64,000 bases of DNA, taken from Ignavibacteria bacterium. GTDB taxonomy: Bacteria > Bacteroidota > Ignavibacteria > Ignavibacteriales > SURF-24. Below, in pieces: positions 6,253 through 54,304 of this stretch. The stretch is from the NCBI GenBank assembly GCA_025612375.1, contig JAAXKN010000009.1, forward strand, positions 62,001 to 126,000, written 5' to 3'. A program made the position numbers and the translations under genes. Each line of letters starts with the position of its first letter. The first letter of the stretch is position 1. Below the pieces are notes generated by a model that did not search any database, had not been told where the DNA came from, and worked only from the letters and a program-made list of their open reading frames with translations.

Positions 6253-9102
6253 TTACCTGCTTAACTCAATGGGCTGTCCGTTGTAATTTAACGACCTGTC
6301 GGGCTTTGAAGATTCATCTCCTCCGGTGCCGTGATTTTTGTTTACCCAGATGATATTAAATGTCATCTTCTCCGGCATGCCGGGGAAGGTGCCTTCTCTT
6401 TTTCCGATTGTTAGCTCCTGATCTTTTTCATTCCAGCGGATTGGGATAACTGAATAGGTACCTTTTTCGTAATTGTAATTGTCCCCCTCATCGTCATATA
6501 AATCAAATGAGGCATCGGCCCCAGTGTAGATTCTGAGCTCAATCGGGCCACGGACTTTCTCTGATGCATACTGTTCAGCGGGACCCATCGGAAATATGGA
6601 GCCGGCTTTTATGTACAAGGGTATGATATCAATTGGAACTTCTCTTTTTAAGGTTTTGCCGCCCTGGGTGCGCTCGCCTGTCCAGAAGTCGTACCACCCT
6701 CCCGGCACATCAGGAAGGTAAACCTCCCTTGATCCGTTTTCTTTTAAGGGATCAAACTGCTTTGGAACCATGCCGGGTGTCCTCCAGGCAAGACGCAGCT
6801 TTGTGGCGTTTGCCATGCGGGCATATTCAATTTTGAAACTATGCCACGATCCCGCTTCCATAGGCATTTTAATGCGGTATGTTGTATCAATTCCTTTATT
6901 GTTCCAGCCGTCAATGATCTCTTTCCCATCCATATAAAACCTGACTGCATCGTCACTTGTCAGCCAGAATTCATACTCCCCTGCGCTAAGGGTCTTAAAA
7001 GATCCTGTCCACCTGATGCTGTTGCGCTCCCAGTTGACCTGAGGCGGAAGGTCCTGCCCGAGATAAAGGTCGAACAAGGTTGCGGACTGCAGGCTATCTA
7101 CTTTAAGCGTATCAAAATTAACTCCGTTAAAATACTCCGCGCGGTAGAAGCCCTCAAGGCCCCATGGTGACCTGAGGCACGAGGAAGGAATAAGCCGGTT
7201 TTCATATCCTTCACCGTAATACATATGCTCTGTGACCGGATTAACCATTATTGAAGGACCGAACATGAACTGGTCTCCGATTGTGTAAAGCGTTGTATCC
7301 TCCGGGAAATCCATCGGGAGCGCGCGCATCATTGTGTAGCCGGAATGGGTCACTTTCCATGCAAGTGAATATATGTAAGGCATGAGGCGGTAGCGAAGCC
7401 TGTCATATTTCAGCAGGGCATCATAAGCCCATGAGCCGGGCTTACCGAAATTCCAGGGCTCGCGCGGCGTATCGGTGCCGTGAGAGCGGAATATGGGATT
7501 AATTGCCCCGAACTCAAACCAGCGCACATAGAGTTCCCTATAGCCCGGGTTATCTACTCCACCCGGGAAGGCTCCGTAGCGCCTGACGTGAAAGCCCCCG
7601 ATATCGTTTGTCCAGTACGGGATTCCGGTCATGCAGAAATTAAGTCCTGCCGGGATTTGGTTACGGAGGACGAGCCAGCCGGCTACAATGTCGCCCGACC
7701 AGGTAGTTGCGGCGTTTCTCTGCTGCCCCAGGAAAGCCGAACGAGTAAGAATATAAACTCTTTTTTTGGGGTCTGAGGCCCTTTGCCCTTCATACACGGC
7801 TTTAGTTGTAAGCAAGGAATAAGGGTTCAGGTATCTGGCCATAGTACCAAGCGTGTTGCGCACAGCGGCTTTAAGGGACCTTTCATTTGGAGCCAGTATT
7901 ATTTCGGGTTCAGTGGCATCCATCCAGAAGGCATCGACGCCCAGGGAAAAGAGCCCTTTATTAATTGCATTCCAATATATCCTCCGGGCAAGAGGGCTGT
8001 AAGCGTCATAGGTGTGGCCGTCGGTCCAGTGGTAAGGCTTAAACAAAAGTCCTTTTTTATTAAGCTCGTTATATAGGTCAGTTTTCCGGCCTGCAACGGG
8101 CCATATGCTTACCATCAGGCGTGCATGGTATTCCTTATGCAGGGAATCTATCATCCTGCTGGGATCGGGGTAGCGCGTGGAATCAAAGCGCATAGCGTTC
8201 CAGTATTCGTTATTATCGCCCCAGTACTGCCAGTCCTGCACAATGCAGTCAAGCGGGATATTAAGCTCACGGAATTTTCTGGCGGTATTTAATATCTCAC
8301 TCTGTGTCGTATAGCGTTCTTTGGACTGGAAGTATCCGTAAGCCCAGCGGCTGTACATTGGAGCCTGCCCGGTGGCCAGGCGGCAGCCTTGGATTACTTC
8401 ATCCATATCATCTCCTGAGGCGAAATAGTAGTCTATATTATCCGCAACTTCAAACCAGATGTAAGAGCTGTCAGAGCGGTCCTTAAACCTGATTTTGGAA
8501 TAGTTATCGAATATGAGGCCGTATTTTTTTGTCGACAAAAGAAAAGGTACCACCGCCTTTGTATTTTCCTGCACGAGGGTTTCTTCATGCCCCCTAAAGT
8601 TCATGAACCCATCCTGAAACTGTCCCAGGCCATAGACGCCTTCTTTCGGAGAAAAGCTGAGGTTTAGCTGTGCATTAAAGGTATGCTCACCAAGCATAAC
8701 CGCAGGGGTAAACACTGCGGCAGAGACAGGGTTTTCTGAAAAAATGATATTCCCAAGTAAGTCTGAAAAAGAAACTGAGCCTGAACGGAGATCTGCTTTT
8801 ATATGAAGTTTTTTAGTTTTAATTGTAGCGCTGTTTTTCGTGAGGCTTACCTCAAAGGGTACTCTCTTCCAGCGTGCAGTTACAGAAAGGCTTTTGGGGG
8901 GAAGAAGTGTTTTTTCAGGGCTATGAAGGATACGTATAATTTTGTCGGAGCATATTACAATCTGAAGGCCTCCTTTAGGGAGCAGTACGGTAACAGAGGA
9001 ATCGTTTTTTTCAAAGCGGTCCTGTGAATATGTCAGGCCGGAAGATGCAGTCTGAAGAATAATGGCAGCAATAGTAATGAGCCTGTAAAACATGGATGAC
9101 AT
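6253..9102 (-). CDS. Secreted GH31 glycoside hydrolase with PA14 insert (alpha-xylosidase/alpha-glucosidase type)
   Basis: GH31 enzymes remove alpha-linked glucose or xylose by a retaining mechanism. The start is taken at ATG 9100-9102, which has AGGGGAT 8 bp upstream; an earlier in-frame TTG at 9132 is less likely. The 949-residue protein begins with a hydrophobic signal segment. The catalytic barrel spans about residues 235-590, with the nucleophile in WMDATEP (about D395) and the acid/base in TWSGD (about D471). A PA14-like carbohydrate-binding module (GFYRAEYFNG ... YEFWLTSDDAVRFYMDGK) sits at about 650-780, inside the C-terminal beta region, which resumes with PDVPGGWYDFWTGE and ends in a DUF5110-like part. 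Substrate specificity cannot be fixed by eye; alpha-xylosidases of xyloglucan use can carry PA14 modules. No polysaccharide locus surrounds it. Confidence 0.92.
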   Translation of the reverse strand: MSSMFYRLITIAAIILQTASSGLTYSQDRFEKNDSSVTVLLPKGGLQIVICSDKIIRILHSPEKTLLPPKSLSVTARWKRVPFEVSLTKNSATIKTKKLHIKADLRSGSVSFSDLLGNIIFSENPVSAAVFTPAVMLGEHTFNAQLNLSFSPKEGVYGLGQFQDGFMNFRGHEETLVQENTKAVVPFLLSTKKYGLIFDNYSKIRFKDRSDSSYIWFEVADNIDYYFASGDDMDEVIQGCRLATGQAPMYSRWAYGYFQSKERYTTQSEILNTARKFRELNIPLDCIVQDWQYWGDNNEYWNAMRFDSTRYPDPSRMIDSLHKEYHARLMVSIWPVAGRKTDLYNELNKKGLLFKPYHWTDGHTYDAYSPLARRIYWNAINKGLFSLGVDAFWMDATEPEIILAPNERSLKAAVRNTLGTMARYLNPYSLLTTKAVYEGQRASDPKKRVYILTRSAFLGQQRNAATTWSGDIVAGWLVLRNQIPAGLNFCMTGIPYWTNDIGGFHVRRYGAFPGGVDNPGYRELYVRWFEFGAINPIFRSHGTDTPREPWNFGKPGSWAYDALLKYDRLRYRLMPYIYSLAWKVTHSGYTMMRALPMDFPEDTTLYTIGDQFMFGPSIMVNPVTEHMYYGEGYENRLIPSSCLRSPWGLEGFYRAEYFNGVNFDTLKVDSLQSATLFDLYLGQDLPPQVNWERNSIRWTGSFKTLSAGEYEFWLTSDDAVRFYMDGKEIIDGWNNKGIDTTYRIKMPMEAGSWHSFKIEYARMANATKLRLAWRTPGMVPKQFDPLKENGSREVYLPDVPGGWYDFWTGERTQGGKTLKREVPIDIIPLYIKAGSIFPMGPAEQYASEKVRGPIELRIYTGADASFDLYDDEGDNYNYEKGTYSVIPIRWNEKDQELTIGKREGTFPGMPEKMTFNIIWVNKNHGTGGDESSKPDRSLNYNGQPIELSR

Positions 9103-9189
9103 ATAATGATCCCCTGCTTTCTTTGCCGTCAAAATACTTCAAGGAAAAGTAATATGCAACCGGTGAAGTGGTTTATGGGAGCACCACCT

Positions 9190-9627
9190 TTATTTGCCTA
9201 TATCCTCGTTCCATAATTCAGGGCTTTTTTCAATAAAGCCTTCCATCATCTCAACGCACTCCTTAAGGCCAAGGACTTCAATTTTAACCCCTCTTGACGT
9301 AAGGAGCTCTTCCTCACCCATAAAAGTGCTGTTTTCACCGATAATTACTTTTGGTATGCCGTATAAAAGGACCGCGCCCGAGCACATGGAGCATGGTGAA
9401 AGTGTGGTATAAAGGACAGACTGGCGGTAGACTTCGGCCTTAAGGCGCCCGGCATTTTCCAGGGCATCCATTTCCGCGTGCAGTATTGCGCTTTTTTCCT
9501 GTATTCTTTTGTTGTGCCCGCGTCCGATAATTTTATCCTTATGGACCAGGACAGAACCTATAGGGATTCCACCTTCCAAAAGACCTTTTTGGGCTTCCTC
9601 AAATGCCGCACGCATGAACTCATCCAT
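9190..9627 (-). CDS. Cytosine deaminase, yeast FCY1-like
   Basis: A zinc-dependent deaminase of the CDA fold. The start at 9627 is chosen because GGAGG lies 5 bp upstream; the ATG four codons earlier precedes that SD. The 145-residue protein has the zinc/catalytic pair HAEMDALENAG and SPCSMCSGA. Its tail (GEEELLTSRGVKIEVL ... PELWNEDIGK) closely resembles the small fungal-type cytosine deaminases rather than TadA or GuaD. The likely reaction is cytosine to uracil plus ammonia, in the cytoplasm. It is monocistronic here, but a uracil-type permease lies 41 kb away in the same window. Confidence is high for the deaminase fold and moderate for cytosine as substrate. Confidence 0.83.
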   Translation of the reverse strand: MDEFMRAAFEEAQKGLLEGGIPIGSVLVHKDKIIGRGHNKRIQEKSAILHAEMDALENAGRLKAEVYRQSVLYTTLSPCSMCSGAVLLYGIPKVIIGENSTFMGEEELLTSRGVKIEVLGLKECVEMMEGFIEKSPELWNEDIGK

Positions 9628-9659
9628 AAAATCCTCCATTAGTTTTATAGCAGAAAAAA

Positions 9660-9687
9660 AGCCTTAAAAACGTGAGCTTTTAAGGCT
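9660..9687 (-). terminator. Bidirectional-looking terminator between the small helical gene and the deaminase
   Basis: AGCCTTAAAA and TTTTAAGGCT form a perfect 10-bp stem with an 8-nt loop. On the minus strand it is followed by TTTTTTTCTG. It lies 24 bp past the stop of the upstream gene at 9712. Confidence 0.8.
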
Positions 9688-9711
9688 TTTATTTCAAGAG
9701 GTTAAAGTCTC

Positions 9712-9936
9712 TTATTCATTTACCTGATGATCTTCAGGATTCTTGACCCCGCCTGAATAAATAGATGCCCTGAGCTCCTCAATGTTTTTATCCAAAGAAG
9801 CCAGGTGGTCAATAAACTCGGGTACTTCGCGTTCCGGCTGATGCGAAAGCATAGTCTTCATTGAATGCAGAGTCTGTTGAATGCAGGTAACCGCGTCAAA
9901 GAGCTTTTTATTAATTTCCTGCTGACTTAAAGCCAT
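9712..9936 (-). CDS. Small helical protein of unknown function
   Basis: A 74-residue protein (MALSQQEINKKLFDAVTCIQ). The start at 9934-9936 has AAAGGAGG 7 bp upstream and is preferred over an extension reaching 10011. The sequence is almost all amphipathic helix (IQQTLHSMKTML, FIDHLASLDKNIEELRASIY), which suggests a helical hairpin or small coiled-coil dimer. No signal peptide, cysteine pair or catalytic motif is present. I do not recognise the family. It is transcribed alone with its own terminator and is divergent from the tandem unknown genes that start at 10230. Confidence 0.68.
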   Translation of the reverse strand: MALSQQEINKKLFDAVTCIQQTLHSMKTMLSHQPEREVPEFIDHLASLDKNIEELRASIYSGGVKNPEDHQVNE

Positions 9937-10180
9937 AATTCCTCCTTTAGGGATTAAAATGAATACCCCTGATTTATATTTCAGTAATTTCGTATTCACT
10001 ATTCGGTCCAAAGCTAAATTCCCTGGATCGGTTAACTTAGAATATGCATTAAATAATTAAAATTCAATCATTTTCTTTCTTTTCCGCCCTTAAATGCGTA
10101 ATTCTTTGGCCAGTTTGCTAAAATCAGCCACTTCAAAGCCGGGCAGCGTAAAAAAACGAATAATAAGACAAAAAATCTTT

Positions 10181-10196
10181 TGGTACGGAATTAGTG
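10181..10196 (+). promoter_or_regulatory. TGGTACGG element, candidate sigma-54-like promoter upstream of tandem gene 1
   Basis: TGGTACGGAATTAGTG lies 34-49 bp before the start at 10230. The TGGNACG part matches a sigma-54 -24 box, but the -12 position reads GT instead of GC. The same TGGNACGG word occurs upstream of the genes at 11101 and 18900. It is a candidate element only. The rest of 9937-10229 shows no gene. Confidence 0.35.
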
Positions 10197-10229
10197 TATT
10201 AATAAGCAAATAGATCCGAGGTTTTGGAA

Positions 10230-10934
10230 ATGAACAAGTTAATACTAGATACGTTTTTATATGTAACAGATTTTGAACTGAGCTCGTATAGAATTCTGGA
10301 CAGTTTAAAAAATTACAACGGTGAATTCAACCATAACAGGCTTTACCCCGGCTTGTCAGAGCTGATAGAGTTAAATCTTCAGTTAAAAGATATAGATGAA
10401 AACAATCTGAATGACATCTATATAGAAAACTTTGCAAAGAAGAAGTCCAAAGATGAGCGCCTTATGGTTGAGACCATAGAGGTAACAGACGACTATATTC
10501 AGCAGGTAGTTGATCTTATCGAATGGGCAAAACCTCTGATCAAAGAAGCGATTGACGAGGGGAAAATCCTGTACGAATTCGTCAAAAAGAACATTTATAT
10601 TGAAGAAATCGGCATTGCCGACGCCAGCCGTGAAGAAGGCTACGTCCTTATCCCCGACAACAAGAAGTCGGTTATTCAGGTGCTCAGATACGATATTTCC
10701 ATGATGTCTACAGGGAAAAAGTCGCAGCGGAGGTTAAATACAAGGGTGCTACAGTCAGTAGACAAGATTTTTGTAAACCAGGCACCTAACGAAGTTATCA
10801 TGGATCTTTTTGAGCAGTTTGCAGATATGCCCAACTCATCAACCTTCATCTGCACGACAGACCTGGACTTTCCATTTACAGAGACAATACTTCCAGTGGT
10901 AAAAAGAAAGCTTATGTCGCGCATGGCAGCATAA
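10230..10934 (+). CDS. Unknown family, long member of a tandem paralogue pair
   Basis: A 234-residue cytoplasmic-looking protein. The start at ATG 10230 is supported by GAGG 9 bp upstream and by exact alignment with its neighbour (MNKLILDTFLYVTDFEL against MTYLTIDTFLYVNDFEL). Residues 1 to about 125 form a helical domain shared with the next gene, including the conserved stretch VVDLIEWAKPLIKEAIDEG. Residues about 130-234 form a second region (VLIPDNKKSVIQVLRYDIS ... TFICTTDLDFPFTETILPVVKRKL) that the neighbour lacks. No enzymatic motif, signal peptide or membrane segment is visible. I do not recognise the family. The second region has the look of an alpha/beta effector or binding domain, but this is inference. 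Confidence 0.75.
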   Translation: MNKLILDTFLYVTDFELSSYRILDSLKNYNGEFNHNRLYPGLSELIELNLQLKDIDENNLNDIYIENFAKKKSKDERLMVETIEVTDDYIQQVVDLIEWAKPLIKEAIDEGKILYEFVKKNIYIEEIGIADASREEGYVLIPDNKKSVIQVLRYDISMMSTGKKSQRRLNTRVLQSVDKIFVNQAPNEVIMDLFEQFADMPNSSTFICTTDLDFPFTETILPVVKRKLMSRMAA

Positions 10935-11045
10935 GAAAGTGCAATTTTAGCCAATTGTGGACGATAATATTGCGCAACTGTTCAATATTAGCCAGATTAG
11001 CTTTCAAATTTCAGTAAAATCCTATAATTGGTCTGGTTTTAATTC

Positions 11046-11062
11046 TGGAACGGTAATTGGAC
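11046..11062 (+). promoter_or_regulatory. TGGAACGG element, candidate sigma-54-like promoter upstream of tandem gene 2
   Basis: TGGAACGGTAATTGGAC matches the sigma-54 pattern TGGCACG-N4-TTGCA with one mismatch in the -24 box and one in the -12 box. It lies 39-55 bp before the start at 11101. GGAAC could instead be an ECF sigma -35 box. Confidence 0.4.
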
Positions 11063-11100
11063 TCATAATAACAGAGTTTATTTAAGAAGGGATGAAAGAA

Positions 11101-11493
11101 ATGACATACTTAACAATTGACACGTTTTTATATGTAAATGATTTTGAATTAGGCCAGTACAAAGTATTAGGCGCATTAAAGAAGTACACAGAAGAATTCC
11201 AGAATAAAAACACACACCCGTATTTAGCAGAGCTGACTTCTCTAGTAAACACGTTAATAAGAGTTGAGAAGAAAAGAAGCAAGATTATAGACCTCTTCCC
11301 TATTCCGGTTGAGAAAGTCGATGCCGAGAAAAAGCAGCTTGTCTTTGAAAATTTCGTCCTCTACAACGAAGATATTGAAAGAGTATTTGATCTTATCAAA
11401 TGGGCAATCCCAGTAATACACGACACTATAGATGAGGGCTTATGTGTCAGCAAGTCCTTTACAAAAGAGCGTTCAAGTGACGTTTTAGTTTAA
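11101..11493 (+). CDS. Unknown family, short member of the tandem paralogue pair
   Basis: A 130-residue protein homologous to the N-terminal half of the preceding gene. Shared segments include DTFLYVNDFELGQYKVLGALKKY and VFDLIKWAIPVIHDTIDEG at matching spacing. It stops where the neighbour continues into its second region, and no decayed remnant of that region is visible downstream, so it looks like a real single-domain version. The start at 11101 is chosen by alignment with the paralogue; an ATG at 11092 is an alternative. It has its own upstream TGGAACGG element and a terminator. Function unknown. Confidence 0.74.
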   Translation: MTYLTIDTFLYVNDFELGQYKVLGALKKYTEEFQNKNTHPYLAELTSLVNTLIRVEKKRSKIIDLFPIPVEKVDAEKKQLVFENFVLYNEDIERVFDLIKWAIPVIHDTIDEGLCVSKSFTKERSSDVLV

Positions 11494-11536
11494 GGAAAAA
11501 GAGTTTTAGAGTTATTTTTTATCCTCTCATTTCAAT

Positions 11537-11560
11537 CCCCATAACAGCAATGATATGGGG
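11537..11560 (+). terminator. Terminator after the tandem paralogues
   Basis: CCCCATA and TATGGGG form a 7-bp stem, followed by GTTTTCTATTTT on the plus strand. It lies 43 bp past the stop of the short paralogue. Confidence 0.65.
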
Positions 11561-11728
11561 GTTTTCTATTTTAAACCGATATATAGTAAGACAGGTCTAA
11601 TAATTAAATCAAAAAGAGGGTTAATCCTGAACTTCCCAAAATTAAAACTGTTTAAATGAGCAGGAGTCTTTTAAATTTAAAAAACCCTCTTTTTTTATTA
11701 TCTTTGAATAGTTTAACAGGAAACTCAT

Positions 11729-12946
11729 ATGAACAGAAATAAAATTATTCTTACCGGATTTTTTGTGCTAGTCATGATTTCCGCGGTTTTTGCCTACAGG
11801 CTCTTTTCAACGGACAAGGCAGGCAAGGATCTTTACTTTAATGTAAATGGCGGCGAGCGTACTCACGTTGTTACAACGCAGGAGCGTCAGGCGGTAAATG
11901 ATCAGATTACTTCATCGAGGAATAATCTCATTACTGAAACCGTAAAGGCTGTAAGTCCGGCCGTTGTAGGCATTAACGTCACCGAAGTGGTTCAGTACCA
12001 GGATCCCTGGGCAAGCGACCCGTTTTTCAGGCAGTTTTTCGGCGACCGGTCGTACAATCAGGAAGTAAAAAGCCTTGGTTCAGGCACAATAATTTCGCCT
12101 GACGGCTACATCCTTACCAATGATCACGTTGCCGGCAACGGAGTAAAGATTACGGTTACAATGACAAACGGCAAACAGTTAACGGCAAGGAAGATCGGGA
12201 CCGATCCGGCAAGTGATGTATGCCTTCTTAAGATTGACGGGAATAATCTTCCCTACATCCCGATGGGGAACTCGGATGATGTTTTAACAGGAGAATGGGT
12301 AATTGCATTGGGCAACCCGTTCGGGCTTTTTGAAATCAATGACCAGCCGACGGTTACAGTTGGTGTCATCAGCGCCAAGGGGATGAATCTTGAGCCTGAT
12401 AACAACAGGTATTACCTCGGCATGCTTCAGACAGATGCGGCAATCAACCGAGGCAACAGCGGCGGGCCGCTTGTCAATTCCGTAGGTGAGCTGATTGGAA
12501 TGAACACTTTAATTTATACAGCCGACGGCTCTTCAGGAAACATTGGACTTGGTTTTGCAATACCGATCAATAAGGCCAAGAGGATCATTACAGAGCTGAA
12601 GGCAAAAGGCATTGTAGACAGGAATTTCAAGATTGGTCTTGACGCACAGACAATTGACGAAGGGATTGCAGAATATTATAAGCTTGCAAGCACCCGGGGA
12701 GCCATTGTTACTGACGTAAAGCGCAACTCCCCTGCCGAGAAGGCCGGTCTGGAGCCGGGCGACATTATTGTGGAAGTTGAGGGCAACAAGATCATTAACC
12801 GCGGAAGCCTGGTAGGAGTATTCCAGGAGTTCCGTACGGGACAGACTATTAGTTTGACTATAATTAGGGAAAAACAAACATTAAACAAAAAAATGAGGCT
12901 TGAAAAAGCAGATGATCGAAAGATATACACTCCCCGAAATGGGTAA
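11729..12946 (+). CDS. HtrA/DegP-type serine protease, membrane-anchored, one PDZ domain
   Basis: A periplasmic protein quality-control protease of the DegS/DegP class, 405 residues. An N-terminal hydrophobic segment (about residues 6-24) acts as anchor or uncleaved signal. The trypsin-like domain has H133 (TNDHVAG), D163 (SDVCLLK) and S244 (RGNSGGP). A single PDZ domain (about 290-395) contains the ligand loop region NSPAEKAGLEPGDIIVEV. One PDZ plus a membrane anchor fits DegS-like architecture better than two-PDZ DegP. Its 3' end overlaps the purB start by 35 bp, so the genes are cotranscribed. A TATCTTTG motif just upstream, at about 11699, resembles the Bacteroidota -7 box. Confidence 0.93.
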   Translation: MNRNKIILTGFFVLVMISAVFAYRLFSTDKAGKDLYFNVNGGERTHVVTTQERQAVNDQITSSRNNLITETVKAVSPAVVGINVTEVVQYQDPWASDPFFRQFFGDRSYNQEVKSLGSGTIISPDGYILTNDHVAGNGVKITVTMTNGKQLTARKIGTDPASDVCLLKIDGNNLPYIPMGNSDDVLTGEWVIALGNPFGLFEINDQPTVTVGVISAKGMNLEPDNNRYYLGMLQTDAAINRGNSGGPLVNSVGELIGMNTLIYTADGSSGNIGLGFAIPINKAKRIITELKAKGIVDRNFKIGLDAQTIDEGIAEYYKLASTRGAIVTDVKRNSPAEKAGLEPGDIIVEVEGNKIINRGSLVGVFQEFRTGQTISLTIIREKQTLNKKMRLEKADDRKIYTPRNG

Positions 12947-14213
12947 AATCTGGCAGGATGAGTTTAAGTACCAGACATGGCTCAAAATTGAAATCCTCGC
13001 CTGTGAAGCAAGAGCTGCAATGGGAGAAATCCCGCAAAAAGATGTTGAGGTAATTAAGGCAAAAGCCAATTTCGATATCAAAAGGGTTCTTGAAATTGAA
13101 GAAACCACAAAACATGACGTAATTGCTTTTCTTACAAATGTTGCTGAATATGTAGGGCCCGAAGCAAGGCATATTCATTATGGAATGACGAGTTCAGACG
13201 TTCTGGATACCTCGCTTTCCTATCAGATGAAGACTGCAGGCGAACTTTTAATGAAAAAGCTCCTGGATTTTAAGGCGGTCTTAAAGGAAAGGGCTTTAGA
13301 GCACAAAAACACTCTCTGTGTTGGGCGCAGCCACGGCATACATGCCGAACCTACAACTATGGGACTAAAGTTTGCACTCTGGTATGAAGAGACCAGGCGC
13401 AACATTACAAGGCTTGAGGCCGCAATAAAATCTATCAGCGTAGGGCAGATCTCCGGCGCCGTAGGGACGTTTGAACACCTGTCACCCAAAGTTGAAGAAT
13501 ATGTATGCAATAAAATGGGTCTTAGCCCTGCTCCTGTTTCAACACAGGTAATACAGCGCGACCGTCATGCCGAGTTTCTTACGACACTGGCAATTATAGG
13601 CACCACACTTGAGAAGATCTCAGTTGAGATCCGCCACCTTCAGAGGACTGAAGTCCTGGAGGCGGAAGAATACTTCTCCAAGGGGCAGAAGGGTTCTTCG
13701 GCCATGCCGCACAAGCGCAATCCGATTACGTGCGAGAGGATTACAGGGCTTTCAAGGCTTTTAAGGAGCAACTCGATGGCAGCCATGGAAAACGTTGCAC
13801 TCTGGCATGAGCGCGACATATCACATTCCTCTGTGGAAAGAGTAATTGTGCCTGACAGTTGTATTATACTCGATTATATGTTACATTTATCTATAAAATT
13901 GATCAAGAACCTTCTGGTATACCCGGAAAACATGCTGAAGAATCTGAATCTGACGCGCGGGCTCATATTCTCACAGACTGTGCTTCTTAAGCTGGTAAGC
14001 AAGGGTGCAACAAGAGAAGATGCCTACAAGATGGTACAGACTCCGGCCATGGAAGTCTGGGCAGACAAGGGTAAAGACCTGAAAAGCGAGCTTTTGAAGT
14101 CTGAAGAGGTAAGTAAATATTTAAGCGAGCAGGAGCTCTCAGAGATATTCGGAAATCAGGCTACTCTGAAGAACGTAGATTTCATTTTTGCCAGAACCGT
14201 TGAAAAAGATTAG
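12912..14213 (+). CDS. purB: Adenylosuccinate lyase
   Basis: PurB catalyses two steps of purine synthesis: SAICAR to AICAR plus fumarate, and adenylosuccinate to AMP plus fumarate. The fumarase/lyase signature KGSSAMPHKRNP is present, together with TSSDVLDTSLSYQ, GRSHGIHAEPTT and the C-terminal NLTRGLIFSQ. The start at ATG 12912 (MIERYTLPEMGKIW) gives 433 residues, the usual length, and lies inside the end of the htrA-type gene. An upstream TTG at 12900 is possible but less likely. The product is a cytoplasmic homotetramer in known cases. Confidence 0.96.
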   Translation: MIERYTLPEMGKIWQDEFKYQTWLKIEILACEARAAMGEIPQKDVEVIKAKANFDIKRVLEIEETTKHDVIAFLTNVAEYVGPEARHIHYGMTSSDVLDTSLSYQMKTAGELLMKKLLDFKAVLKERALEHKNTLCVGRSHGIHAEPTTMGLKFALWYEETRRNITRLEAAIKSISVGQISGAVGTFEHLSPKVEEYVCNKMGLSPAPVSTQVIQRDRHAEFLTTLAIIGTTLEKISVEIRHLQRTEVLEAEEYFSKGQKGSSAMPHKRNPITCERITGLSRLLRSNSMAAMENVALWHERDISHSSVERVIVPDSCIILDYMLHLSIKLIKNLLVYPENMLKNLNLTRGLIFSQTVLLKLVSKGATREDAYKMVQTPAMEVWADKGKDLKSELLKSEEVSKYLSEQELSEIFGNQATLKNVDFIFARTVEKD

Positions 14214-14288
14214 ACAGGCGTTTAATGTTATAGAAAAAGTGTTATATTATAAAGAGGGCTGTTCCTAAAAAGAGCCATTACAAGAGGG

Positions 14289-14314
14289 GCCAATGTAAAG
14301 AAATTTACATTGGC
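14289..14314 (+). terminator. Strong hairpin between purB and the histidine kinase gene
   Basis: GCCAATGTAAA and TTTACATTGGC form a perfect 11-bp stem with a 4-nt loop, followed by ACCGTTATTTTTGG. It lies 75 bp past the purB stop. The other parts of 14214-14492 show no gene. Confidence 0.6.
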
Positions 14315-14492
14315 ACCGTTATTTTTGGAAGCATAAAATAAAATCAGTGATGCATTTCGGCAGTTTTTTCCGGAAACATAGCAGGCATCAGAATTTTCCC
14401 ATCCCCTGAGATTCACCCCCGTTTTTCTGAAAGATTTAATGCTTCAGAGGTGCCGGCTTTAGGAACTGAAATAATGTTAATGAGGGCACAAA

Positions 14493-17210
14493 ATGGAACA
14501 GAATCAAATTGCCAGGGCCTTAAAGGAAAGTGAAGACCGGTACAGGCAGCTGGTGGAATATCTTTCGGACGCAATAATCGTTCATTCGAGCGCCCAGATC
14601 TCATTTATTAATCCGGCAGGGCTGGAGCTCCTGGGAGCTGCATCCATTCAGCAAATTTTAGGCAAAGCCTTCATCAACTTTGTACATCCTTCCGACAGGG
14701 AATGCGTCCAGGAGCGCTTCAGGAAAGTAATAGTTGAAGGGGTTGAAAGCGGCTACTTTGAAGAAAGGCTGATGAGGCTGGACGGGAGTGAAATATTTGC
14801 CGAGACCATGCTCTCCCCTTTTACATTTCAGGGCGAGTGGGCAATTCTTATTGTAACGCACGACATCACAGGCAGAAAGCAGACCGAACAGGCTTTAAGA
14901 GAAAGTGAGGAACGCTTTAAGACAATGGTTCAGAACATAAGCGGCTATATATACAGCGTAACTTACAAGGGGAAAAAAGCCGTTTCTTCGTATCACAGCC
15001 CACAATGCCTCGTTATTACTGGATACTCCCCCGAGGAGTATCAGGAAGACCCCGATCTCTGGATAAAGATGGTTTATAAAGACGACCACGATCACGTTCA
15101 GATGGTTTTTGATTCCCTGAAGGAAAATCCGCAGCAGACGAGAGTCGAGCACAGGATTAACCATAAGGACGGCTCGATAAGGTGGATTGAGAACACGTAT
15201 ACTCTTCAGATAAATGAATCCGGCGAAATAGAAAGGATGGACGGGTTCATAATCGATATAACTGACCGAAAAACTGCAGAAAACGCGCTTCACGAGCAGT
15301 ATTTTTTCCTCCAGAGGCTTATTGACACCATACCTAACCCAATTTTCTACAAAGACATTAACGGGGTTTTCCAGGGTTGTAATATTGCCTATGAAAAGCT
15401 CATGGGGGCAAGCAGATTTGAAATTATAGGGAAAACTGTATTTGATCTGATGTCGAAAAGTGTTGCCCTGAGCATACAAAAGTATGACGAGGAGCTTTAC
15501 AGGCGCCGCGGAGTACAGATCTATGAAACTGAATTTGAGACACGGGACAGGAGAACGCTCAGCCTGATTCTAAATAAAGCGCTTTATTTCAATACTGACG
15601 GGACAGTTGCAGGGCATGTGGGGGTTTTGCTGGATGTTACGACATTAAAGCAGACACAGGAAGAGCTGAGGAGGGCTTTGCAGGAGCTGCGCGAGATGGC
15701 GATAATAATTAACAAGAGTCCTGCAATTGTATTTCTCTGGAAGGCAGTTGACAGCTGGCCCGTTGAATTTGTTTCAGATAATATAAATCAGTTCGGCTAC
15801 AATTCAGAGGACCTGATTAAAGGAAAGATAAAATTCTCGCAGATAATTCATCCGGACGACCTGCCCAGAATTGCAGCTGAAATGAACAGTTTTATGCTTG
15901 AGGAGGTAAACGAGTTTATACAGGATTACAGAATTCTGACCAAGGAAGGTGAAACCCGCTGGGTGGACGACCGAACATGGATAAGGAAGGATGAAAGCGG
16001 CAAGGTTACGCATTATCAGGGTATAATAATAGACATTACGACCAGGAAAAATGCCGAGCAGATGGTGCGGGAAAGTGAAGAGCGATACAGGGCGCTTGCT
16101 GAAAACTCCTATGACCTGATAAGTGAAATAAGCCAGGATCTGAAGTTCCTTTATCTGAGTCCCAACTTTTACGACGTCCTGGGATACCATCCCCCGGAAC
16201 TGATAAACAAGAGCATACTGGAGCTTGTGCATCCGGATGACGTGCCGTCGGCACTTTCATCCTTAAGGAGGGAATCAGGAAGTGCAGCACTTCGTTTCAG
16301 GCACAAGCAGGGAGAATGGTTCTGGTTTGAAAGCACGGGGAAGAAATTCCGCACGGCGCAGGGTGAAAACCGTGGTGTTATAGTTTCGCGCGACATTTCC
16401 GAGCGCAAGCGCCTGGAGCAGCAGATAATTCAGACCGAGAAGCTGATGGCCGTAGGTGAAATGTCGGCAATGATTGCCCATGAATTCAGAAATGCGCTCA
16501 CCTCAATTAAAATGATACTTCAGCTTCAGGGCGAGTCGGAGAACCTGACTATCTCAGAGAAGGAATCCTTTGGAGTAGCAATTAATTCCATTTATCACAT
16601 GGAATCTGTTGTGCAGCAGCTTTTGAACTTTGCCCACCCTGCCCCGATGGAGTCGCAGATTGAGGACTTAAACAGGGTTATGAGTGACTGTCTGCCTTTT
16701 ATAGATCTCCAGGCAGCAAAAAAATCGATACACGTTGTAAAGAAAATAGAGCAAAACCTTCCCAAAATGCCGCTAAACTCGGCAGGTCTTAAAGATGCAA
16801 TTATAAATCTCGTCTTAAATGCGGCGCAGGCATTTGACAGCGGCGGGAGCCAGGATAGAAGAAGAATTTCCATTATGCTAAAGAAAGTTGTACTGGATGA
16901 AACCCTGAGGGATTACGATTTCAGCGCCAGCGGCGATCACATGCTGATAAAGTACAGGAATGAGGAAAACCACGAGGTTGTTCTTGAGAAAGGCTGCCAG
17001 TGCGTGCTGATTGAAATTTCAGACAACGGCCCGGGCATACCAGAGGAAATTCTGGAGAAGATTTTTGAGCCTTTCTTTACCACAAAGGAAAAGGGTTCAG
17101 GCCTCGGGCTTCCGATAGTAAAAAGGACTGTAAATGCGCACGGAGGGGTAATTCAGGTCTTCAGCCGTGTAAATGAGGGTACGACATTCAGGATTTACCT
17201 GCCGGTTTGA
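14493..17210 (+). CDS. Cytoplasmic multi-PAS sensor histidine kinase
   Basis: A 905-residue kinase without signal peptide or membrane segments. Five PAS/PAC units can be followed at about 10-130, 140-260, 270-390, 400-520 and 525-640; several are separated by repeats of the linker ESEERY/ESEDRY and end in motifs such as [17 protein letters not shown] and VSRDISERK. The HisKA domain has phospho-acceptor H663 (IAHEFRNAL). The ATPase domain has the N box [10 protein letters not shown], the G1 box DNGPGIP and the G2 box GSGLGLP. The form matches soluble NtrB-like kinases that sense redox or small ligands. It ends 41 bp before an NtrC-type response regulator, its likely partner. The sensed signal is unknown. 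Confidence 0.94.
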
Positions 17211-25582: not shown

Positions 25583-26608
25583 TTAGTAGCTGATACCTAC
25601 AGTAAAGTTATGAAGGTTGCCGAAAATTCCAAATTTTTGGAATGCGTAGTCGATTCTGAAAGGAACATTTGAAATTGTCTTTCTGAAACCCAGACCTGCG
25701 GAAAATCCTCTTTCATCTGTATTGGTAACGTAACCTGTTCTAACAAAAAATGTTTTCTCGTAGCTGTATTCAGCGCCATATTTCAGTTTTTCACCAAAAT
25801 CTCTCGGGTGGTTTGATTCAAACATCACAACCAGGTCGTGTCCCTGCATGTTCTGGAAAGCAAACTGCAAGGGAGCAACAGTAAAGCCGAAGCTGACAGC
25901 AAATGGCAGCGGGAATACTTCGTTCTCGTATTTCATTTCGCGCGAGACGTTGGAGAGTGTAGCGGCAAATGTTATTCCTTTGAATTTGAAATCGTAGTAT
26001 GTGCCGATATCAACAGCCACAGCGCCAAGCCCGTACTCCTTTAATTTAATCGTAGACTTACTGGCGTCCATGGAATCCATTGTAGCTGTCATCCAGGCGG
26101 AGCCCAGGTTCTGGTCAACGTATTTAATGTTTACGCCGTAAGAAAACCTGTCGGAGATCTTCTGTGCAAAACCTAGGCCCAGTGTAAAGGCTGTAGGAGA
26201 AAAAGTGCCAACTTCATCGTAGCCGTCTGAGGTAAGAGATCTGCGCGTTGCAATCAGGTCTCCATAGTTAACAATGGTACCGCTCAGAGTAACAACGCCG
26301 AAATCGAAAGCATTAAAGCTTGCGGCAACGGCATTATATGAGATATCGGCGATCCATTGATGGTAGTTCAGGCTGAGGTCGATATTTCCCGGAATCATGG
26401 AAGTAAGGGCAGGATTCCAGAAGATGCCGTTGGAATTAAATGTGGAATTAATGCCGGCAGTGCCCCTTCCGATCACCTCTGCCGAGACGGGATTGCTTAG
26501 AAACTTCATTCCAACCTGTGCCTTTTTAGTAATCTGGGCACTTGCCGGGACTGTAAAGATAAGCAGTCCAATCAGAACCATCAATTTATCTTTAATCTTA
26601 AAATTCAT
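25583..26608 (-). CDS. PorV/PorQ-family outer-membrane barrel protein
   Basis: A 341-residue protein with a signal peptide (LMVLIGLLIFTVPASAQ) and a FadL-like beta-barrel body. The N-terminus GMKFLSNPVSAEVIGRGTAG with NGIFWNPALTS is the hallmark of the PorV/PorQ (UPF0164) family. PorV proteins shuttle T9SS cargo from the translocon to the attachment complex. It is third in a three-gene operon behind a TonB receptor and a large secreted protein, a common order in Ignavibacteria-like genomes as I recall. It may be a dedicated partner of this operon rather than the housekeeping PorV. Confidence 0.85.
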   Translation of the reverse strand: MNFKIKDKLMVLIGLLIFTVPASAQITKKAQVGMKFLSNPVSAEVIGRGTAGINSTFNSNGIFWNPALTSMIPGNIDLSLNYHQWIADISYNAVAASFNAFDFGVVTLSGTIVNYGDLIATRRSLTSDGYDEVGTFSPTAFTLGLGFAQKISDRFSYGVNIKYVDQNLGSAWMTATMDSMDASKSTIKLKEYGLGAVAVDIGTYYDFKFKGITFAATLSNVSREMKYENEVFPLPFAVSFGFTVAPLQFAFQNMQGHDLVVMFESNHPRDFGEKLKYGAEYSYEKTFFVRTGYVTNTDERGFSAGLGFRKTISNVPFRIDYAFQKFGIFGNLHNFTVGISY

Positions 26609-43798: not shown

Positions 43799-44629
43799 CT
43801 ATCCTGCAATTGCCAGGAAGATGATATAAACGGCAAATATTACGGCAAAAACCGCAGCTATTTTGAGCAATCCTCCGGCAATTTTTCTGGCTTTAAGCCC
43901 GGCTTTTTCATAGGCGGAAGATTCATAATTAAAGCCCGCCTGCTTTTCACCTTCAGGCACAACAACTTCCTTTTTTTCTCCGTTTTCATAAAGAATCCTG
44001 GCCTTAAGTTTACCAGATTCATCGAAGAGGAGGTTTTCGCCGTGTTTTTTGCCAGTGACAAAGTTAATTTTCTCCTTCAGCTTTCCGTCTTTAAAGAAAA
44101 TCTGCGTCGAGCCGTGGTCTTTACCGGCAGAGTAGTTTTTTTCTCCCAGGAGCTGGCCGTTTTCGTAATAAAACCTTGAAGGCCCGTCGGGGACGCCGTT
44201 TTTATAAGACCACTCCCCTTTGAGCATGCCGCTTTTGTAGTAAGTGGTCTTTTTCCCTTCAATTTTGTCGTCTACCAGTGTTTGATTTTCTCTTAGGGGG
44301 CCGGATTTGTAGAAAATTTTGGTTGGGCCGTTTTTCCTTCCGCCACAGTAGGAGACCTCAGCTTTTAGTTCCCCGTCCTCGTAATAATACTTAGCATCTC
44401 CGGAGATGAGGTCATCCTGGTACTGGATATCGCTTTTCAGTATACCGCTTTCAAAGTAAGTTCTTGAAGGGCCTTCTTTCTTCCCCGCCTTAAAGTAAGA
44501 AAGCTCCATTAAGCGGCCATCCGTGTAGTAAATTCTAGACTCCCCATCCGGAAGCCCGTTTTTGTAGCTGGTTTCTTCTCTTATGTTCCCGTTTTCGTAA
44601 TAGGTTGTAAAAATGCCGTCATATACCAT
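43799..44629 (-). CDS. YwqK/MORN-like repeat protein with C-terminal membrane anchor (member A)
   Basis: A 276-residue protein built from nine repeats of 23-24 residues (residues 1 to about 215) of the form YYxxGxLxxExxYxxGxxxGxxxx, as in NGLPDGESRIYYTDGRLMEL. Repeats of this type are annotated as MORN_2 or 'YwqK family antitoxin'. The C-terminus (LLKIAAVFAVIFAVYIIFLAIAG) is one transmembrane helix at the very end, so the protein is tail-anchored with the repeats in the cytoplasm. No signal peptide. It is head-to-head with a homologous gene at 44775. Role unknown; a scaffold or toxin-neutralising role is only suggested by family name. Confidence 0.85.
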   Translation of the reverse strand: MVYDGIFTTYYENGNIREETSYKNGLPDGESRIYYTDGRLMELSYFKAGKKEGPSRTYFESGILKSDIQYQDDLISGDAKYYYEDGELKAEVSYCGGRKNGPTKIFYKSGPLRENQTLVDDKIEGKKTTYYKSGMLKGEWSYKNGVPDGPSRFYYENGQLLGEKNYSAGKDHGSTQIFFKDGKLKEKINFVTGKKHGENLLFDESGKLKARILYENGEKKEVVVPEGEKQAGFNYESSAYEKAGLKARKIAGGLLKIAAVFAVIFAVYIIFLAIAG

Positions 44630-44774
44630 AAAGCTGTACCGGAAATTGTTGGGGAAATTGGTTTACGAGTGTAAAAATTTAAGATTTCAAAAAAAAATTG
44701 GAAAAACATATTTAATTATCGAAAACTTTTTCGAGTATTTAAAAGAAGAATTCAGAAAGTAGAAAACAGGACTA

Positions 44775-45815
44775 ATGGAAAACGAATATCCAAATTTAAC
44801 TCCGGATAATTTAGAGAAAGAATCTCCTTTTGATTACTCCAGCACATATTACGACAGCGGGAAAATCAAATGTGAGCGTTTTTTTACAGATGACCACCTC
44901 CTTCTTAAAGAGATTCACTACAGCCCTGCCGGACAGATCAGGGAGATAGTCAACTATAAGAAAGACGGGACGAAATATCTTCATCAGTATTTTCAAAATG
45001 AAATTGTAAAAAGCGGACTGGCACTTACTTATTATGAAAGCGGGGCCATACAGAGCCAGAAATACTATGTTGACGGAAAGGTGCACTGGGAGGAGAAGAT
45101 ATTCGGGCCCGAAGGGCAGCTTCTTGAGATAATTACATACATAAAGGGGGGTAAAACCGGGGTAAGCACAATATTCAACCAGCTGGGAGGTAAGATCAGT
45201 GAGATCACGTATAAAGATAATCAGCCCGAAGGGATATCCAGGTTTTATTATGACAACGGGCAGCTGAAGGCTGAAATAAGCTACATTAAGGGGAAGAAAA
45301 ACGGCGTCTCAAAAATATACTACCAGAACGGAATAATGAAAGTAGCCGAAAGCATGAGGGACGACGTACGCGACGGCCTTACAAAAACTTTTTATGAAAA
45401 CGGGGGTTCAAAGGAAGAGTGGTATTTTCTGGACGGAGAACTCAACGGAAACTGCAAGTTTTTCTACAGAACGGGGCAGCTCTTCGGGACCAAGAATTAC
45501 GAGAACGGCAAAGAAGAAGGACTCTCGCAGTTTTTTTATAAAAGCGGGAAATTAAAAGAAGAGATTATATACCATGAAGGGAATAAATGGGGTGTAAGTA
45601 AAGTATATGATGAGAACGGCAATATACAGGTTGAATATATATACAAGGATAACGAGATAATTGAAGAAAAGAGGAGCGCGCCTGTTTATCAGGAGCCGGC
45701 CGGCACATCATCAAAAAGTGAAAACGTCAGGAGAAATATCAATTATTTCCTTATATTTTCAGCTGTGCTGATAATGCTTTATCTGCTCTACGCATTTATT
45801 CTTTATGTAGTGTAA
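44775..45815 (+). CDS. YwqK/MORN-like repeat protein with C-terminal membrane anchor (member B)
   Basis: A 346-residue paralogue of the divergent neighbour. About 11 repeats of 24 residues (NQPEGISRFYYDNGQLKAEI and similar) run from residue 15 to about 300, some more diverged in the N-terminal half. A polar linker is followed by a terminal transmembrane helix (INYFLIFSAVLIMLYLLYAF). As in member A there is no signal peptide, so the repeats should face the cytoplasm. The two genes share a 145-bp AT-rich divergent control region. No toxin gene is recognisable beside them. Confidence 0.85.
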   Translation: MENEYPNLTPDNLEKESPFDYSSTYYDSGKIKCERFFTDDHLLLKEIHYSPAGQIREIVNYKKDGTKYLHQYFQNEIVKSGLALTYYESGAIQSQKYYVDGKVHWEEKIFGPEGQLLEIITYIKGGKTGVSTIFNQLGGKISEITYKDNQPEGISRFYYDNGQLKAEISYIKGKKNGVSKIYYQNGIMKVAESMRDDVRDGLTKTFYENGGSKEEWYFLDGELNGNCKFFYRTGQLFGTKNYENGKEEGLSQFFYKSGKLKEEIIYHEGNKWGVSKVYDENGNIQVEYIYKDNEIIEEKRSAPVYQEPAGTSSKSENVRRNINYFLIFSAVLIMLYLLYAFILYVV

Positions 45816-51896: not shown

Positions 51897-51923
51897 GAGC
51901 AGAGGAAGAATTATTTGATCAGG

Positions 51924-51949
51924 AGCCACGGTTTTGTTTAGCCGTGGCT
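51924..51949 (+). terminator. Terminator of uraA
   Basis: AGCCACGG and CCGTGGCT form a perfect 8-bp stem followed by TTTTTTG, 27 bp past the stop. Confidence 0.85.
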
Positions 51950-52122
51950 TTTTTGTATCTATTCCCCATCATTGATGCCGTAAAAGTTTGCACGGAGTCT
52001 GATAGATAATATTTATTACCCGATAAATGGGATTGATTTTAAGTTCAAAAGGGATTTATTTCGGAGTAATAGCACACATCTTCAGATTGGTTTTAAAACA
52101 ACTAATTCCAGGGGAGGTAATT

Positions 52123-54219
52123 ATGGTGAAGAAGAGGATACTTATTTCTTTTTTCGCAATCGTTCCCGTTTTACTCCTGTTATCATTTCAGACAATTTCC
52201 GCACAGACTTTAACCATTACAGTTGAAGGCCGTTCACCCGGACAGTTAAAACTAACCGAAACTACACAGATGTGGCCCGTTTCTTCGGGTCTGCCCGTTG
52301 TAGCACTCGGCAAGAGAGTATACCTGTCGGCAGATACAACTCGAGGGGGCGATACGACAGCCACAGCGCCTTTAGTGACATGGACGCTGACAGCAAAACC
52401 TGCAGGTTCAACTGCAACATTTGATTCGGCCGGTACAACCAGCGGGAATTCTTTCGTAGCCGATATGAGAGGCTTATATACGATAACCGCAACTATCGGC
52501 TCAAAAACGGCAACGCAGAACATTTTCGTCAGCGTATATAAAGGCATTACACTTACAAAGAACTGCGCCCCGTGCCACCAGACTCCGAAGACTATAGACA
52601 AATTTCCGCAGTGGAGCCAGTCGGCACATGCAACGATGTATAAGCGCGGCATCACAGGGCAGCTCTTCGGTGAATACGGTACATACTGCGTCAAATGCCA
52701 CACGACGGGATGGGATTCAACGCTGGCAAACGGAAACTTTGGTTACAGGGCAAAGATCACCGGATGGGACACAACATGGTACAAGCCCAGAAAACCAGTC
52801 AATGATACAATTCATATTACACCGGGAGATTCGAGCAGATGGACACTGCTTGAGACACAATACCAGAGTGTAGATTCAGTAGCTAACATCGGGTGCGAGC
52901 AGTGCCACGGTCCGGCACAGGACCACGCATCGACTGCCGATCCGACAAAGGTTGCTGTTTCACTTCAGGGCAGCGTATGCAACGTTTGCCATGACCTGCC
53001 GCCTAGCTATGTGGTGGGAGGCGACTGGAGGCAGTCGAACCATGCAACAATGCCTTTAAGCGGCGAGGAAGCCGGACGTACAACCTGCTACCCGTGCCAC
53101 AGCGGTGCTGCAATTGTAAAGTTCGCCAAGAACAAAACAACTCCGGGCTACAGTGCAACTACGGACAACGTTCCATCGATTTCGTGTGCAAGCTGCCACG
53201 ATCCTCATCAGGCGAAGAATACAACATTCTCGGTCAGGCTGCTTACGCTTGATTCACTTGTCAACGGCTACAAGCCGCAGAACCCGACCGGAACGGGATC
53301 CATGTGCATGAACTGCCATCATGCCCGTGAGAACTCACAGGTAAGGGTGACAAACCAGGCGAAGAAATTTGCCGACCGGTTCTATCCGCATTACAGCCCG
53401 CAGTCGGATATGTTCCTGGGCGCCAACGGATATGAATACGGGCAGAACTTTACAGGTGAAGGCACGCACAAGAATGTTATGCCGAATGCCTGCGTTACGT
53501 GCCATATGGCGGCAAATCCCGATACATCAGTCAACAGGTTTGCCGAGGCAAACCACTACATGAAGATGGTTGATCAGCAGGGCAAAGACAGGGTTTATGC
53601 CTGCAAGGGCTGCCACCCGTCGGTTACGAGCTCCTTTGATGACGTTAAGGCTTCAAGCGACTATGACAAGAACGGTAAAATCGAAGGTGTTCAGACGGAA
53701 ATCAGGGGATTACTCGACCAGCTGAAGGCAAAGCTTCCGAAGGATTCAACCGGTGAAGTTGTTACAATGGCAAGGGATTCCATGATCGTAAAGAACTTCC
53801 CGGGATATCCGAAGATTCTGGGACCGATGTGGGATTACTACTTTGTCAAGAACGACTGGAGCAACGGAGTCCACAACTCCAGATATGCCGTTTCACTGCT
53901 GCAGGCTTCACTGCTGCAACTGACCGGTGTTGAAATGACAAACAACGTAATTCCGCAGGCCTATTCGCTGCAGCAGAATTACCCGAACCCGTTTAACCCG
54001 GCAACAACCATTGAATTCTCAATTCCTGAAAATACAGACGTGACACTGAAGGTTTACGATGCCGTAGGACGCGAGGTTGAGACGCTCCATACAGGAACTC
54101 TAAAGACCGGGAACTACAAGATTATATGGAACGCCACCAATCTTGCCTCAGGAGTATACTACTACAAGCTTTCCACAGTTAACTATTCAACGGTTAAGAA
54201 GATGGTTTTCCTGAAGTAA
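52123..54219 (+). CDS. Secreted nonahaem c-type cytochrome with T9SS sorting domain
   Basis: The start at ATG 52123 (MVKKRILISFFAIVPVLLLL) has GGGGAGG upstream; the frame upstream to 52027 is not supported. The 698-residue protein has a signal peptide, a PKD/Ig-like domain (about 50-145, LGKRVYLSADTT ... GLYTITATIGS), and nine CxxCH haem sites: CAPCH, CVKCH, CEQCH, CNVCH, CYPCH, CASCH, CMNCH, CVTCH and CKGCH. Two pieces (WSQSAHATMYKR, WRQSNHATM) resemble cytochrome c554-like modules. The C-terminus (NYPNPFNPATTIEFSIPEN ... GVYYYKLS) is a canonical type A T9SS domain, so the cytochrome should be exported and attached at the cell surface. A role in extracellular electron transfer is inferred. 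Confidence 0.93.
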   Translation: MVKKRILISFFAIVPVLLLLSFQTISAQTLTITVEGRSPGQLKLTETTQMWPVSSGLPVVALGKRVYLSADTTRGGDTTATAPLVTWTLTAKPAGSTATFDSAGTTSGNSFVADMRGLYTITATIGSKTATQNIFVSVYKGITLTKNCAPCHQTPKTIDKFPQWSQSAHATMYKRGITGQLFGEYGTYCVKCHTTGWDSTLANGNFGYRAKITGWDTTWYKPRKPVNDTIHITPGDSSRWTLLETQYQSVDSVANIGCEQCHGPAQDHASTADPTKVAVSLQGSVCNVCHDLPPSYVVGGDWRQSNHATMPLSGEEAGRTTCYPCHSGAAIVKFAKNKTTPGYSATTDNVPSISCASCHDPHQAKNTTFSVRLLTLDSLVNGYKPQNPTGTGSMCMNCHHARENSQVRVTNQAKKFADRFYPHYSPQSDMFLGANGYEYGQNFTGEGTHKNVMPNACVTCHMAANPDTSVNRFAEANHYMKMVDQQGKDRVYACKGCHPSVTSSFDDVKASSDYDKNGKIEGVQTEIRGLLDQLKAKLPKDSTGEVVTMARDSMIVKNFPGYPKILGPMWDYYFVKNDWSNGVHNSRYAVSLLQASLLQLTGVEMTNNVIPQAYSLQQNYPNPFNPATTIEFSIPENTDVTLKVYDAVGREVETLHTGTLKTGNYKIIWNATNLASGVYYYKLSTVNYSTVKKMVFLK

Positions 54220-54249: not shown

Positions 54250-54271
54250 AGCCCGGTTTAATAGCCGGGCT
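54250..54271. terminator. Terminator after the nonahaem cytochrome
   Basis: AGCCCGG and CCGGGCT form a 7-bp stem with an 8-nt loop followed by TTTTATTG. It lies between convergent genes, 30 bp past the cytochrome stop. Confidence 0.82.
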
Positions 54272-54304
54272 TTTTATTGCCATAAGGGAGTAAAAGAGGT
54301 ATCT

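Follow-up and report, generated by a model that had tools for sequence, protein, structure and literature searches.

Gene and Protein Layout

How does a cytochrome with nine haem sites and a C-terminal sorting tail for type IX secretion (T9SS) fit into electron transfer across the outer membrane? The question is raised by a gene on the forward strand of the window, i.e., of the whole 64,000-nucleotide stretch of DNA that was analysed. A sequence-only reading of this gene had proposed that its product is exported or held on the surface by T9SS and offers a route for extracellular electron transfer that is distinct from porin-cytochrome (Mtr-type) systems. Our analysis refers to the following features.

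51921..51952, + strand: terminator-like hairpin between the upstream permease gene and the cytochrome gene
52110..52117, + strand: ribosome-binding site AGGGGAGG, by direct reading of the sequence
52123..54219, + strand: whole gene, 698 aa and a stop codon; encodes an OcwA-type cytochrome with nine haems and a type A tail for T9SS sorting
52123..52203, + strand: Sec signal peptide without lipobox, residues 1-27 (..TISA|Q); from the sequence and a predicted helix 2-26
52204..52536, + strand: N-terminal Ig-like beta-sandwich, residues 28-138 (AlphaFold2 strands 29-137)
52540..53922, + strand: nine-haem OcwA/NrfA-superfamily domain, residues 140-600, including C-terminal helices with a GVHN motif
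52564..52578, + strand: haem motif 1, CAPCH (148-152)
52687..52701, + strand: haem motif 2, CVKCH (189-193)
52894..52908, + strand: haem motif 3, CEQCH (258-262)
52978..52992, + strand: haem motif 4, CNVCH (286-290)
53086..53100, + strand: haem motif 5, CYPCH (322-326)
53185..53199, + strand: haem motif 6, CASCH (355-359)
53305..53319, + strand: haem motif 7, CMNCH (395-399)
53491..53505, + strand: haem motif 8, CVTCH (457-461)
53602..53616, + strand: haem motif 9, CKGCH (494-498)
53659..53700, + strand: EF-hand-like acidic loop DYDKNGKIEGVQTE, residues 513-526, with D513, D515, G518 and E526 invariant or nearly so
53953..54216, + strand: T9SS type A C-terminal sorting domain, residues 611-698 (PF18962, TIGR04183; fold matches)

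The start codon ATG 52123 is preceded by a strong ribosome-binding site, and a longer open reading frame from 52027 lacks a comparable one. Beside the listed hairpin, a second one with a T run is seen by eye directly 3' of the gene (about 54250-54275). Given hairpins on both sides, the gene is probably transcribed alone, i.e., as a single-gene transcript. It is solitary here, with a permease gene on one side and an unrelated gene on the other. The neighbours within its own genome give no functional clue; the flanking genes are kept in the sister species, yet are unrelated. Elsewhere in the window (43799-45815), two convergent genes encode proteins that have membrane helices at the C-terminus and are built from MORN-like repeats ('YYxNGxLKxExxYxxGxxxG').

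As the sequence-only reading had stated, the protein holds exactly nine CxxCH sites, which comprise all 18 of its cysteines. Shuffling the same protein 20,000 times yields a mean of 0.012 and a maximum of 2 such motifs. The Ig-like domain that had been noted ahead of the haems is recovered as a predicted fold, i.e., as a beta-sandwich (29-137) in the full-length AlphaFold2 model (mean pLDDT 82.5, pTM 0.78). Since the region matches no Ig family in Pfam, the label depends on this predicted fold. The acidic loop is a possible calcium site of EF-hand type, judging from its conserved residues.

Seven histidines outside the motifs (169, 268, 307, 362, 423, 478 and 584) are kept in 83/83 homologues and, in the alignment, fall on histidines of OcwA. 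As there are nine haems, two of them would be left without a distal histidine and may use a different distal ligand or none. In OcwA, two haems are open and one is of the His/Met kind. Where OcwA has its His-His pockets, the protein has Ser-Tyr and Phe-Tyr instead, such that it is uncertain whether these two haems behave as in OcwA; the second position of the first pocket is a histidine in 54/83 relatives.

Sorting Domain and Predicted Export

The claimed sorting domain at the C-terminus holds up, as the last 88 residues pass both curated cut-offs (Por_Secre_tail, PF18962: 41.7 bits vs. 27; TIGR04183: 42.8 bits vs. 23). This is also reflected in the full-length model, whose top PDB matches include the C-terminal domains of RgpB and mirolase as well as the T9SS-bound substrates NucA and RemA (E about 1e-3 to 1e-2). 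Among homologues, the tail keeps NPFNP, GxYxY and the terminal K.

With regard to the machinery, the organism's own genome encodes homologues of SprA and PorU, about 20 members of the PorV family above the cut-off, which is unusually many, and at least 150 sorting tails. A search for GldM gave no match in this genome and none in any control genome either, i.e., it is uninformative. A gene for a PorV-family outer-membrane protein lies within the window (25583-26608, - strand). The cytochrome shows features expected of T9SS type A cargo, namely a signal peptide together with a tail above the cut-off in a genome that has the machinery. Tail sequence and fold, conservation throughout the order and the SprA/PorU/PorV homologues support the proposed export by T9SS, which would place the cytochrome on the cell surface.

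We also assessed how stable the combination of haem domain and tail is within the order. The profile of the haem domain matches in 78/96 relatives (E<=1e-20). Without five matches to fragments or to shorter proteins with five haems, about 73 remain. Tailed nine-haem homologues are also carried by culturable members, namely Stygiobacter electus (L087) and a Melioribacter sp. (L092). The tail is present in 30/30 best homologues and in 56/56 sampled nine-haem homologues of the same order, 55 of which have nine motifs and one eight. That is, haem domain and tail stayed joined over large sequence distances. This conservation rules out a chance or assembly fusion of the two parts. The own genome holds a second T9SS-tailed nine-haem gene (G000:C2:181038-183164, i.e., L166:8033-10159), which is about 41% identical and also solitary. 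A search of plasmids returned matches to tails only.

Relationship of the Haem Domain

The full-length model gave only beta-domain matches, i.e., C-terminal domains of T9SS substrates, and the haem domain was therefore modelled alone. The stand-alone model, which contains no haems, reaches a pLDDT of 78 and a pTM of 0.79. Its top two PDB matches are OmhA of Carboxydothermus ferrireducens (6qvm) and OcwA of Thermincola potens (6i5b; E 2e-6 to 5e-6), followed by NrfA. The TM-scores to 6qvm and 6i5b are modest (0.45-0.47) for this model without haems. A sequence profile that covers the haem domain and includes relatives of many phyla gives the same two proteins, here with OcwA (E 4.5e-35) ahead of OmhA (1.4e-26), while NrfA (1.3e-12) and MccA (1.5e-8) rank lower. 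Based on profile and fold matches, we assign the haem part to the OcwA/OmhA branch of the NrfA superfamily.

OcwA is a nonahaem terminal reductase of the cell surface, whose acceptors comprise solids, electron shuttles and oxyanions (PMC6703420). The study on OmhA groups OcwA with nonahaems of Gram-negative bacteria (PMC7829351), i.e., the haem family as such is already known. The role in extracellular electron transfer put forward in the sequence-only reading thus gains support through homology to OcwA and OmhA.

Proposed Link to a Porin-Cytochrome Conduit

The sequence-only reading had also proposed to search the genome for porin-cytochrome partners, and an operon of this kind is indeed present, far away from the cytochrome gene (L165 = G000:C11:1-20000, 7853-14777). 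It encodes an 18-haem/cytochrome b fusion, a tetrahaem c554, a protein of about 426 aa, a 14-haem protein and a 6-haem lipoprotein. By its architecture, the fusion (b-type domain PF01292) would be a CbcL-like quinol oxidase, and the protein of about 426 aa, which has no Pfam match, is read as a putative outer-membrane barrel. The cytochrome inventory of this genome combines family searches with selected stretches and may miss members.

The barrel gene is found in 87/96 relatives. In ten of the relatives (L178, L213-L221), a T9SS-tailed nine-haem gene lies directly upstream of the c554-barrel-14-haem-6-haem series on the same strand; nine of these genes belong to a shorter subfamily without the Ig-like domain and one (G044) is of the long form. 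Contigs from KSB1, Calditrichota and Bacteroidota also show a nine-haem T9SS gene that adjoins a barrel of the same family. In the own genome and in the genomes closest to it, the operon has the quinol oxidase in this place instead, and the nine-haem genes are located elsewhere. Of the barrel-less genomes, 7/9 lack the nine-haem gene, too (Fisher p 8e-5 to 5e-4, with kinship among genomes ignored); the other two (G075 and G079) carry it without a detected barrel.

Two observations concern the variation of these clusters. Five-haem proteins of 378-404 aa (L222:7110-8321, L223:5513-6646), which distantly resemble the C-terminal half of the nine-haem domain, end the porin operon in some relatives whose operon has no nine-haem gene. 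Within the same porin cluster of a Calditrichota member (L081:7556-10555), there is a second T9SS-tailed multihaem protein (999 aa, 7 CxxCH) with a haem domain of the ethylbenzene-dehydrogenase type (PF09459).

A route distinct from porin-cytochrome systems is not supported by these results, i.e., by the barrel and 14-haem operon in the own genome and by the T9SS nine-haem gene that heads such an operon in ten relatives. Distinctness from the Mtr type is to be kept in part. An MtrB/PioB barrel was searched for in the own genome without any PF11854 match at E<=1, such that the system is not of Mtr type in the narrow sense; the porin-cytochrome operon that is present is of another kind. MtrC-like Pfam matches are explained by haem-motif similarity.

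Proposed Mechanism and Alternatives

We consider it likely that the cytochrome is an extracellular terminal electron-transfer protein of the OcwA/OmhA type that is delivered by T9SS and fed by the porin-cytochrome conduit. Sec would export the chain and nine haems would be attached in the periplasm. The type IX machine (SprA/PorV/PorU) would then recognise the beta-sandwich tail and carry the folded cytochrome across the outer membrane, to remain at the cell surface or within the extracellular matrix. Electrons would reach it via the conduit, i.e., the barrel, the 14-haem protein and the 6-haem lipoprotein, which in turn would be fed by the CbcL-like quinol oxidase and the tetrahaem c554. From the cytochrome, they would pass to minerals, to electrodes, to soluble acceptors or to other cells. 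The domain make-up, tail identity, OcwA kinship, T9SS parts, conduit operon and operon linkage in relatives are read directly from sequence, whereas the location at the surface, the partner and acceptor of the electrons and the direction in which these flow are inferred. We conclude that T9SS probably delivers the protein and that electrons would cross by the conduit; the operon of the own genome, the operon linkage in relatives and the co-absence of barrel and nine-haem genes speak for the conduit. What speaks against this reading is that the gene stands by itself here, far from the conduit operon, and that the residues of OcwA's His-His pockets are replaced.

The strongest competitor, which we regard as unlikely but worth keeping in mind, concerns the substrate: the protein could be a T9SS-exported reductase of the NrfA superfamily that mainly acts on a soluble compound (nitrite, hydroxylamine, a sulfur oxyanion or similar) and not on minerals. 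Its fold family includes NrfA, octahaem nitrite reductases and MccA; with seven invariant distal histidines for nine haems, two haems may admit substrate, and OcwA itself reduces nitrite slowly (PMC6703420). However, the nearest kin are OcwA and OmhA rather than NrfA or MccA, the residues of OcwA's His-His pockets are not kept, and the genomic linkage is to an outer-membrane conduit and not to Nrf genes; a locus that resembles Nrf, judging solely from its haem counts, lies separately in the own genome. The idea of the sequence-only reading that the T9SS cytochrome is itself the way across the outer membrane, in place of a porin-cytochrome complex, we deem improbable. The solitary gene and the two genomes with the gene and no detected barrel (G075, G079) would fit it, but an exported cytochrome no longer spans the membrane, such that a conduit would still be needed. 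A conduit operon is encoded in the own genome, the barrel gene occurs in 87/96 relatives, and ten relatives have T9SS nine-haem genes linked to such an operon.

Two further readings alter the location or the assembly of the protein. That it is a periplasmic cytochrome with an unused tail seems very improbable given that the tail, including NPFNP, GxYxY and the terminal K, is conserved in 56/56 members of the order over large sequence distance and that the own genome has at least 150 such tails together with T9SS parts. Even less probable appears a subunit of a cytochrome filament, i.e., a nanowire of the OmcS/OmcE kind. The protein is multihaem and predicted to be extracellular, as such a subunit would be, but its haem part matches the globular OcwA and OmhA and is flanked by Ig-like and sorting domains; OmcS is absent from the fold matches and shows a weak sequence match over one motif.

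Predicted Delivery of the Haem Domain across Phyla

Named genomes were scanned with the haem domain alone, i.e., without a bias towards tails, which resulted in 79 loci. T9SS tails are present on the complete members from Ignavibacteriota, Bacteroidota, KSB1, Neomarinimicrobiota and Glassbacteria. They are missing in Acidobacteria, Chloroflexi, Nitrospirota, Nitrospinota, Myxococcota, Gemmatimonadota and Planctomycetota, where many members have a lipobox instead, sometimes followed by collagen-like repeats. Calditrichota and Latescibacterota show both tailed and tail-less members. Members from Verrucomicrobia share a different C-terminal domain of about 130 aa ending in FFRV/FYRV, which is possibly another sorting or anchoring domain. 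When mapped onto a tree of 120 sequences, the T9SS label requires 7 changes compared to 32 in shuffles. That is, the tail tracks lineage, yet with several gains or losses.

Four tail-less relatives (L118, L121, L128, L107) have a collagen-like GPxGPx linker ahead of their haems; their hosts are from Gemmatimonadota, Latescibacterota, Myxococcota and an unclassified bacterium. The first three have a lipoprotein signal ahead of the linker, and L107 is cut at its N-terminus. The Verrucomicrobia C-termini are those of L066, L067, L072, L076, L080, L082, L085, L089, L104 and L110.

We lean, with some reserve, towards a broader statement: in Ignavibacteria and allied FCB phyla, T9SS would serve respiratory multihaem cytochromes in general as their way of delivery and would supply an outer terminal reductase to porin-cytochrome conduits that seemingly have none, with the same head being shipped by lipoprotein anchors and other tails elsewhere. 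If true, this would be one reductase module with lineage-specific shipping.

Comparison with Known Systems

Full-text searches of open journal papers gave no description of a multihaem cytochrome that is exported by T9SS, apart from one match to an unrelated paper, and the multi-omics paper on Melioribacter roseus does not treat such a T9SS cytochrome. What we did not find described is the T9SS tail on a known haem family as well as the link to the conduit operon. A T9SS-tagged OcwA-type reductase that is linked to porin clusters provides a candidate and testable mechanism for iron and anode reduction by Ignavibacteria and their relatives.

Porin-cytochrome (Pcc) clusters are reported for Ignavibacterium and Melioribacter (PMC4245776, PMC7399161, PMC6137239), and the operon of the own genome is comparable to them with its barrel, 14-haem protein, 6-haem lipoprotein, c554 and CbcL-like component. 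In passages from these sources, we found no mention of T9SS-tagged partners, and some Ignavibacteriales porin clusters are described there as having no nearby extracellular cytochrome (PMC6137239). The cytochrome studied here could fill this gap.

The Mtr system of Shewanella (MtrCAB) has the same end role, i.e., an outer-surface multihaem reductase, but differs in fold class and in its barrel, as no MtrB/PioB was found in the own genome. Usual T9SS cargo is an enzyme or an adhesin and differs from the multihaem c-type cytochrome found here. The tail, on the other hand, is alike in sequence and fold to that of T9SS type A cargo (PF18962, TIGR04183). If exported, a protein with nine covalently bound haems would be T9SS cargo, which makes it a strong test that this system moves fully folded, cofactor-loaded proteins.

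OcwA is the closest counterpart by sequence and shares the nine haems, an alignment over most of the haem domain and the three-helix C-terminal part with GVHN. It sits on the wall of a Gram-positive cell and lacks a T9SS tail, whereas the cytochrome here adds the Ig-like domain, the acidic loop and the sorting domain. OmhA, second-best by sequence and the best fold match by E-value, differs in that it is an S-layer protein with eleven haems and no T9SS tail.
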